This document shows, in pieces, positions 13,480 through 21,106 of a DNA stretch of 64,000 nucleotides (within the stretch, counting starts at the first letter, position 1; each line of letters opens with the position of its first letter). Origin of the DNA: Hyaloraphidium curvatum (lineage: Eukaryota; Monoblepharomycota; Hyaloraphidiomycetes; Hyaloraphidiales; Hyaloraphidiaceae); contig JAIVFI010000011.1 of the NCBI GenBank assembly GCA_025558095.1, positions 682,001-746,000 on the forward strand, given 5' to 3'. Under the pieces are notes generated by a model that saw nothing but the letters and a program-made list of their open reading frames with translations, did not search any database and was not told the origin of the DNA. The translations under genes were made by a program, and so were the position numbers.

Positions 13480-13865
13480 GGCACACAGTCACGCGCCGGG
13501 CCCGCGGCCCCTCCTGGCGCGAGGCAACCGCCGACGTCGAGCACCACGGCCCCTTCGCGACGCCGGGCCCACGGCCCATACTCTAGCGCCGGGCCCACGG
13601 CCCCTTCGCGGCGCCGGGCCCGCGGCCCACATTCCACGCGCCGGGCCCGCGGCCCCTTCACGGCGCTGGGCACCGCGGCCCTCTTCTTTGAGCGTCTGGC
13701 ACCTCGGCCCTTCGCGACGCGTGGCCTGCGGCCCTCCTCTCAAGCATCTGGCCCTCGGCCCTTCGGGACGCGGGGCCCGCGTCCCTCCTCTTCAACCAAG
13801 CGCCGAGCACCGCGGCCCCTTCGCGGCGCGGGCACCTCGGCCCTGACATCACCACCCGATGCTCA
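13480..13865. repeat. GC-rich degenerate minisatellite
   Basis: About 390 bp built from degenerate units of roughly 30-40 bp, with the core GCGCCGGGCCCGCGGCCCC and the variable spacer TTCGCGACG. Variants carry CACGGCCC, ACCTCGGCCC or CTGCGGCCC. On the minus strand it stays open in frame after the gag zinc knuckles, giving RREGAA/SRRAEG-like repeats. It interrupts the copia polyprotein between nucleocapsid and protease. A shorter piece of the same repeat lies inside the TRIM at 20885-20936. Confidence 0.8.
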
Positions 13866-15120
13866 CCCTCGCTGTGTTCCATCTGGCCATCTGCCAGCAT
13901 GGCGTACGGCTGCTGGGGCGGTGACGGGCACTCGCGCTGTACGTGCCCCTTGCCGTTGCAATTGTGGCACTTCTTGTCGGGGCACGCCGATGCCACGTGC
14001 CCCGGCTTGCCGCATTCGCGGCAGGTGATCTCACTGGTCACCGGAGCCGGCCTCCAAACGGCAGCACCAGCCGGGCGGTAGCTTGGGCCGCCCATCGGCC
14101 TCAGTGTCTGCGCGGGGTAGTAGCCGCGGCCTCCGCGCATGCCGCCACGTGCCAACCCGCGGCCGCGCATCCGAGTATCATGGCCCTGGCCTTGGATAGG
14201 AGCCATGCCACTCGGCCTGTAGCTGGGGTACGGAGCGTAGCGACCGTGCTCGTACCAGGGGCGCTGCGGAGGCCGACTGAGGATGCCACCACCACGGAGG
14301 GCTTGTTGGGGCGGCTGATAGGCAGTGAAGCCGGGTCCGAACCAGCAGGTGGTGGGAGCGTCGGGAGTGTCGCCGGAGCTGTCATCTTGACAGGTGCATG
14401 CGACATCTTGTTCCCTTGGGCTGTGTTAGCCGCATCCCGCATGCCATTGAACGAGAATGTTATACTCTCGCTCTTGCCGTCTTCGTCGAAGTGCCCGTCG
14501 TCGTCAATGACTCGGCCCCAGAATCCTTGGAGTTCTGCGAACGGGAAGCCTTCGATGAACGTCACCATCAAAGCCACGTCGTAGTCTGAGAGTGGTTTCT
14601 TGTGCGCAAGTCTCTCTGACTTGATACTCAGCAGCTCATTGAAGTTTTGGTCCACAGTCTTTGAAGCGTCCCACTGCCACTTGTTTACGCGGACTTGGGA
14701 CTCGTGTACCAAGCGCGCCTTTCCAACTTTGAACTTCTTGTGAATCGCGATCCAGAGGTCGTAGGCCGTCTTGGGCTCGTCGAACGCTTCCTGGAGGACG
14801 TCGTCGAGCATCAACATGAGCTCGCCGTAGGCCTTTTCGGCCGTCGTCCTGAACTTGTGTTCCGTGAGGATCGAGTGCGCGGCCTTCTCTTCCTCGGCAA
14901 GGATGGTCTGCCTCTGCCGGTCTGTGGTCTCTGGAGCGGCGCTGCGCTCAGCAGCCCTCTTGCGGGCCTGCTCGAGCTGCCAGTCGATGCTGAGGACGTT
15001 GTTGACGACGTACTCGTACATCCCAAGCTTGTTGAGGTAGATGGGGGCCTTGCGGTCCCACTGGACCATGTTGTCACCGGTGTTGAGCAGGATAGGCTTG
15101 TCGGCATCGTTGGCTGTCAT
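13866..15120 (-). pseudogene. Copia gag with two CCHC zinc knuckles, frameshifted
   Basis: The gag frame starts at the ATG at 15120 (MTANDADKPILLNTGDNM) and runs 339 residues. It contains UBN2/copia gag features such as YDLWIAIHKKF and VRVNKWQWDASKT. Near 14200 the useful reading shifts to another minus frame encoding GRG-rich sequence and two zinc knuckles, CRECGKPGHVASAC and CHNCNGKGHVQREC. The shift could be a mutation, a programmed frameshift or a lost intron; I cannot tell. The sequence then runs into the minisatellite. The downstream protease at 12614-13084 was probably part of the same polyprotein. Confidence 0.8.
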
Positions 15121-15160
15121 CCTGTCACGGGCGGGCTTCCAGGGGTAGCAGGCACGTGTC

Positions 15161-15182
15161 AGAGCAGTTGAGACTCTTAATC
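15161..15182 (-). promoter_or_regulatory. Copia primer-binding site complementary to tRNA-Lys(CUU) anticodon arm
   Basis: The plus strand here reads AGAGCAGTTGAGACTCTTAA then TC. This resembles the D-arm end plus anticodon stem-loop of tRNA-Lys(CUU), with the loop CTCTTAA containing anticodon CTT. The element (minus strand) therefore carries its complement, 3 nt inside the LTR end at 15186. A primer-binding site internal to a tRNA implies priming by a cleaved 5' tRNA half, as is known for Drosophila copia with initiator tRNA. Confidence 0.6.
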
Positions 15183-15185
15183 CTT

Positions 15186-15397
15186 TGTTCCCCTGGTCGC
15201 AGGCGCCCAGAGACAGGTGCAGATGAGGCAGGTGGCGTTCCTGGTGTTTGTTGTGTTATTCCCCTCTCCCTAGAGCCGCCCTCCTAGGTTATTGTCTAGC
15301 CAAGATCCACCCATCCATCCAAGTCCAACATCCAACTCCAGGACCAACTCCAACTCGATCCGACGGCTCCAAACACATCCATCCATCCCCAGCAACA
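15186..15397 (-). repeat. 5' LTR of the copia element, 212 bp
   Basis: On the minus strand it runs from TGTTGCTGGGGATGG to GGGGAACA (TGTT...AACA ends), directly upstream of the primer-binding site and the gag start. Partial copies lie at 12507-12613 (minus) and 20710-20739 (plus). It is inserted in a LINE: at 15398 the plus strand resumes with KKAPNGRAADEDG. Confidence 0.7.
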
Positions 15398-20709: not shown

Positions 20710-20739
20710 TGTTGCTGGGGATGGATGGATGTGTTTGGA
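20710..20739 (+). repeat. 30-bp fragment of the copia LTR
   Basis: Identical to the first 30 bases of the 15186-15397 LTR (TGTTGCTGGGGATGG then ATGGATGTGTTTGGA) but on the plus strand. It lies between LINE D and the TRIM, inside the LINE endonuclease. Confidence 0.75.
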
Positions 20740-20827
20740 TGTTAGACCACTGGACTAAAGAGAAGGTACCACGTCTCTGGCCCAAGTGGTCTGACGTCTA
20801 AGAGCATGTCACCATAGGGAACCAACA

Positions 20828-20836
20828 CTCCCCCCC
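20828..20836 (-). promoter_or_regulatory. TRIM polypurine tract
   Basis: Minus-strand GGGGGGGAG directly abuts the 3' LTR (20827). Position and composition match the plus-strand primer of LTR elements. Confidence 0.7.
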
Positions 20837-20997
20837 ATGCCTTAGACGTCGAGGCCTCCCCCCGATCGCCCGCATAATACATCTCAGACGCCGGGCCCGC
20901 GGCCCCCATCGCGGCGTTGGGCTTCCGCGGCCCTAGGCTCCTGGGCCTATCTCACAAAACCACAAGCGCGACGACCAGGGTTCGAACCTCCGACTCT

Positions 20998-21018
20998 AGA
21001 GCAATGAGACTCTTAATC
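20998..21018 (-). promoter_or_regulatory. TRIM primer-binding site, half tRNA-Lys(CUU)
   Basis: The plus strand AGAGCAATGAGACTCTTAAT then C matches the D-stem 3' side and anticodon arm of tRNA-Lys(CUU) except for one extra A. The TRIM therefore carries the complement, zero bases from its 5' LTR. The copia leader at 15161-15182 has the same site, suggesting shared machinery. Confidence 0.6.
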
Positions 21019-21106
21019 TGTTAGACCACTGGACTAAAGAGAAGGTACCATGTCTCTGGCCCAAGTGGTCTGACGTCTAAGAGCATGTCACCATAGGGAA
21101 CCAACA

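Follow-up and report, generated by a model that had tools for sequence, protein, structure and literature searches.

Small non-coding LTR elements that share their primer sites with larger retrotransposons are known from fungi. Kojima (2024) described the fungal Helenus TRIMs, which have primer-binding sites (PBSs) directed to the anticodon loop and which are primed by spliced, intron-containing tRNAs (PMC10886601). Helenus elements are flanked by 5-bp target-site duplications (TSDs), and their Copia partners have unlike LTRs (PMC10886601). A related primer site has been reported in the fungal FunCo1 Copia elements (2017), whose PBS ATTAAGAGTCT is complementary to an internal part of tRNA-Lys (PMC5445492); a literature search with this 11-mer returned no retrotransposon paper besides that one. 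Priming by the anticodon region of a tRNA is also documented for copia of Drosophila and Ty5 of yeast (cited in PMC10886601).

Here we analyse a 64,000-nucleotide stretch of the Hyaloraphidium curvatum genome (contig JAIVFI010000011.1, positions 682,001 to 746,000), hereafter the window, in which an earlier note, made from the sequence alone, had described a TRIM with a half-tRNA primer site.

Anatomy of the element

The evidence supports identification of the 367-bp element at 20740–21106, which contains no genes, as a TRIM of H. curvatum. It comprises two short direct LTRs with TG...CA ends around a short non-coding interior, has a total length below ~1 kb and contains no open reading frame of at least 200 aa. 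A PBS adjoins one LTR and a purine tract the other, and both of these sites are also present in Copia X, an autonomous family described below. The repeat ends read TG...CA in either orientation, and the sense strand of the element is the minus strand. On that strand the layout is TGTTGGTTCC...TCTAACA, then GATTAAGAGTCTCATTGCTCTAGAG...GGCATGGGGGGGAG, then TGTTGG...TAACA, which places the 5′ LTR at 21019–21106, the start of the PBS at 21018 and the end of the purine tract at 20828. The features of the element, in sense order, are as follows.

21019–21106, minus strand: 5′ LTR, 88 bp, TGTTGG...TAACA
21026–21036, minus strand: box A match (Pol III) TAGTCCAGTGG, in the end of the 5′ LTR
20828–21018, minus strand: TRIM interior, 191 bp, non-coding, present once in the genome
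21005–21018, minus strand: candidate PBS GATTAAGAGTCTCA, abutting the 5′ LTR (0 nt between them), complementary to positions 27–40 of spliced tRNA-Lys(CUU)
20996–21002, minus strand: GCTCTAG, second complementary block (3′ side of the D arm of tRNA-Lys(CUU)), with a 1-nt offset opposite G26
20978–20988, minus strand: box B match (Pol III) GGTTCGAACCC, in the interior, 48 nt downstream of box A (start to start)
20828–20836, minus strand: polypurine tract GGGGGGGAG, directly adjoining the 3′ LTR
20740–20827, minus strand: 3′ LTR, 88 bp, same sequence as the LTRs of L002–L005

The two 88-bp repeats with one difference, the 191-bp non-coding interior and the purine tract against the 3′ LTR were all features of the earlier description, and each was recovered here; the mismatch between the repeats is a CpG-type C/T difference, and the tract reads from 20836 to 20828. 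A GC-rich part of the interior (20889–20934) resembles a repetitive GC-rich stretch of the window (13494–13682) at 80–87%, perhaps because it was captured or perhaps merely through low complexity.

The LTR family in the genome

The genome (31.9 Mb, 55 contigs) reads as fungal from a weak Zn2Cys6 domain match and its overall gene content. We searched it with the 88-bp LTR, as the earlier note had proposed for finding other copies. This returned ~17 further loci with these boundaries, all of them solo or partial LTRs, several of which are identical to the 3′ LTR of the window copy. Perfect 5-bp TSDs flank seven independent insertions, with four copies on C37 counted as one insertion that was amplified with a tandem unit of ~2 kb. 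The duplications at solo LTRs are TCTAG, TGGAC, GACCA, CGGGG, TGTGG and ATAAG, and CCAGG was read by eye at L015. The shared boundaries and the TSDs show an 88-bp unit with exact ends, which integrates as an LTR. The four C37 copies (L008–L011, C37:306358–313911), which represent a single solo-LTR insertion, form part of an LTR-bearing tandem unit, and three of them are spaced at 2011 bp.

A further genome search with the most diverged LTR (L018) yielded no more family members and no autonomous element with the TRIM LTR, and a search with the 191-bp interior found no second copy of it. Because the interior was found at the window locus alone, the copy number of the full-length TRIM is one, and its PBS and purine tract are seen in this single TRIM copy.

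The primer site matches spliced tRNA-Lys(CUU)

The tRNA-Lys(CUU) genes of H. curvatum lie on C26 and contain a 15-nt intron after position 37, with tRNA numbering and intron placement following our reading of the cloverleaf. Positions 27–40 of the spliced tRNA, TGAGACTCTTAATC, pair with the PBS over 14 contiguous nt, whereas the unspliced gene does not. After these 14 nt there is one mismatch and one extra base opposite G26, followed by GCTCTAG, which is complementary to the D arm on its 3′ side. The earlier note had read the site as 21 nt of complementarity to tRNA-Lys(CUU) directly at the LTR and had asked for comparison with the organism's own tRNA. Its placement at zero bases from the 5′ LTR stands, and the organism's tRNA does match once spliced, but the pairing is contiguous for 14 nt and then offset, rather than uninterrupted over 21.

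The exact 21-mer of the primer site occurs once in the genome. Among the other 29 tRNA loci, compared with their introns left in, none has more than 7 contiguous nt in common with the site, and tRNA-Lys(UUU) (L035, by our reading), which is one of these loci, fits it worse. An exact 14-nt match between this fixed position and any tRNA would arise by chance with a probability of ~1e-5. The 14 contiguous nt of complementarity to the anticodon region of the organism's own tRNA, and the occurrence of the same PBS in Copia X, support the view that the TRIM has a half-tRNA (anticodon-arm) Lys(CUU) primer site, as had been proposed. Neither outcome that the earlier note had named as refuting, a non-matching tRNA-Lys(CUU) or a lack of other insertions with these boundaries, was observed. 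The locus on C26 (L031) gives two anticodon-arm matches, from two inverted tRNA-Lys(CUU) genes ~500 bp apart, and the 5′ half of the second gene matches poorly.

An autonomous Copia family carries the same primer site

Copia X is an autonomous family of the same genome, and 13 of its loci carry the identical 14-nt PBS GATTAAGAGTCTCA. Copies in which the LTR start can be read have an LTR of 215 bp (TGTTGC...AACAAAG), followed by the PBS at 0 nt. Reverse-transcriptase (RVT_2) matches lie ~4.2 kb downstream of the PBS in open frames of 1185–1231 aa (C1, C24, C30, C31 and C37), and the copy on C43 has a 5-bp TSD, GTTCT. At the interior end the purine tracts of the two elements are near-identical, with ATGGGGGAG followed by TGTTG(C) in X and ATGGGGGGGAG followed by TGTTG in the TRIM. 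The 215-bp X LTR and the 88-bp TRIM LTR are not similar, and the DNA common to both elements is limited to the 14-nt PBS, the purine tract and a GCTCT just past the PBS. Derivation of the TRIM interior from the X leader was considered and dropped, as there are just short GC-rich or chance matches besides the PBS.

The X LTRs lack a CA end. In one subfamily (L051, L052, L065, L069–L071, L073, L074 and L094) they end in TCTTTGA, not AACAAAG, and with the last four bases of this type of LTR the pairing with tRNA-Lys reaches 18 nt. The window itself contains an X copy (14101–15397, minus strand; LTR, PBS and gag), 5 kb away from the TRIM and with LINE sequence joined to it.

15183–15397, minus strand: Copia X LTR, with PBS GATTAAGAGTCTCA at 15182 to 15169 and copia-type gag at 15120 to 14101

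A second family, Copia Y (C3 and C22), has a 224-bp LTR with an adjoining purine tract, GAGGGGGAG. Its PBS, GGTCTATGAGCCCAA, has 11 contiguous nt of complementarity to the anticodon arm of initiator tRNA-Met (iMet). In the copies L095–L098 the LTR pairs are identical, and the PBS has, near its own start, a bulge or two mismatches relative to the iMet anticodon arm. The primer of copia and Ty5 is the initiator tRNA-Met, and by its 11 nt Copia Y appears to be closer to the copia/Ty5 type than are the TRIM and X. From their PBSs, the Copia families X and Y of this genome are predicted to use different half-tRNA primers. Because the PBS is the same, the TRIM goes with X; the purine tract does not discriminate between X and Y.

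The window copy is part of a composite insertion

Judged from our reading of the translated flank, the TRIM lies in what appears to be the endonuclease region of a LINE; neighbouring LINE frames give an RVT_1 match. Across the joined flanks there are matches to sixteen LINE copies, with ~29 bases missing, and the five that were aligned run through without an insert (...accca(g/a) directly followed by cc(t/c)tcc...). Compared with these empty copies, the window has an additional 30 bp, identical to a Copia LTR head, as well as the TRIM, in the order 30 bp, TRIM, LINE.

20710–20739, plus strand: Copia X LTR head, first 30 bp, TGTTGCTGGGGATGGATGGATGTGTTTGGA; joined directly to the TRIM and absent in the empty LINE copies

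No LINE base was lost or duplicated at this composite insertion, and both of its outer ends are LTR 5′ termini. We looked for a TSD of the window copy in its flanks and in the LINE empty sites and found none, whereas TSDs are present at the seven solo-LTR insertions. The arrangement may represent a mixed (chimeric) X/TRIM cDNA that was captured at a break; we think a nested insertion with a subsequent exact deletion less likely. The suggestion that the one LTR mismatch marks a recent insertion is weak, as it concerns a single CpG difference between 88-bp repeats, in a copy that has no TSD and belongs to a composite insertion.

A model for TRIM mobilization and its alternatives

We consider it likely that the TRIM is copied by Copia X proteins with a cut, spliced tRNA-Lys(CUU) as primer, integrates with TSDs and gives rise to solo LTRs by recombination. 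After transcription of the TRIM, its RNA would most likely be packaged and copied by the proteins of autonomous Copia X. First-strand DNA would begin at the 3′ end (position 40) of the cut, spliced tRNA-Lys(CUU), the anticodon arm of which would pair with the PBS, and second-strand synthesis would begin at the G-rich tract. Integrase would then insert the TRIM with 5-bp duplications, and LTR–LTR recombination would subsequently leave mostly solo LTRs.

The same locus could also have arisen if two independent solo-LTR insertions happened to flank unrelated DNA, such that the interior was never retrotransposed. That history would account for an interior that is unique, for the lack of a TSD and for the failure to find a second full-length copy. 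However, the single LTRs of the window copy also have no TSD, the PBS and purine tract lie at 0 nt from the LTRs in the correct orientation and match those of Copia X, and comparison with the LINE empty sites identifies the entire stretch as inserted DNA; we regard this origin as very improbable. It is harder still to credit that a pseudo-tRNA or a SINE remnant gave rise to the tRNA-like stretch, whose pairing with tRNA-Lys would then be incidental. Although boxes A and B lie on either side of the site, the same 14 nt occupy the same place in autonomous Copia X, the leader of which is otherwise different, and the FunCo1 PBS ATTAAGAGTCT is a published one (PMC5445492).

A further reading is compatible with mobilization by Copia X, since it bears on RNA synthesis alone: the TRIM might also be TRIMp3- or Helenus-like, with boxes A and B forming a tRNA-like Pol III promoter and transcription starting inside the 5′ LTR. 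On the sense strand the two boxes follow each other in the expected order at a spacing of 48 nt, and no other such pair exists in the 64-kb window, with both strands considered, or in any of 5000 dinucleotide shuffles of the element. In addition, positions 25–42 of the interior match the T arm of a genomic tRNA (L033) at 17 of 18 nt, and fungal Helenus TRIMs have tRNA-derived boxes (PMC10886601). Against this, box B falls outside the LTR, unlike in Helenus, box A is about as variable as the remaining LTR columns (2 substitutions over its 11 columns, compared with 24 over the other 77), and the 3′ LTR has no T-run terminator, while a TTTT is present in the interior. Neither a covariance model, even at E 10, nor ARAGORN detects a tRNA in the element; across the window, ARAGORN and Rfam at its gathering threshold found no tRNA or RNA family, and a relaxed Rfam search of the element gave just one chance CRISPR-repeat match. 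With the tRNA models silent and box A not extra-conserved, a Pol III promoter is possible, but on balance we doubt it. We are a little more doubtful of the full combination of a Pol III promoter split over the LTR/interior junction with a half-tRNA-Lys(CUU) primer common to the Copia partner. If the split promoter were real, transcription would start from the 5′ LTR of complete elements only, and solo LTRs and the 3′ LTR would be silent.

Comparison with known systems

The earlier note had held that a fungal TRIM with an anticodon-arm tRNA-Lys site would be a new combination, but this is largely known, from Helenus for the TRIMs (PMC10886601) and from FunCo1 for the Lys PBS (PMC5445492). Since both the element type and the primer site have been reported before, the H. 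curvatum TRIM represents a modest extension of known cases, not a new phenomenon. What is new is the Lys(CUU) identity of the site in a TRIM, the Copia partner in the same genome and the split of the boxes, A in the LTR and B in the interior, which may give complete elements alone a Pol III promoter. One small genome holds both the TRIM and its candidate autonomous partner, linked by a 14-nt primer site despite unrelated LTRs. This provides a compact system in which to ask which features a non-autonomous LTR element needs to have in common with its helper, PBS and purine tract as opposed to LTR ends. Because Copia Y of this genome appears to use the iMet anticodon arm, it also provides a case for primer switching.

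The closest counterpart is Helenus, which is likewise a small non-coding fungal LTR element with 5-bp TSDs and many solo LTRs. In both, the PBS is common to Copia elements of the genome and is complementary to the region around the anticodon of an intron-containing tRNA after splicing. Both also have a tRNA-like box A/B sequence and an LTR that differs from that of the Copia partner. They differ in the primer, the tRNAs named for Helenus being Tyr, Ile, Asp, Asn and iMet, compared with Lys(CUU) here, and in the boxes. The tRNA-derived pair characteristic of Helenus/TRIMp3 lies within the LTR, whereas that of the H. curvatum TRIM straddles the LTR/interior junction and elicits no tRNA covariance-model match. 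The FunCo1 PBS ATTAAGAGTCT is contained in both the TRIM and the Copia X sites; FunCo1 is an autonomous Copia of filamentous ascomycetes, to which X is likened by its PBS and Copia reverse transcriptase only. Finally, copia and Ty5 are primed from an internal part of the tRNA, its anticodon arm, and not from its 3′ end, as is predicted for the TRIM, but they are autonomous and their primer is not tRNA-Lys.
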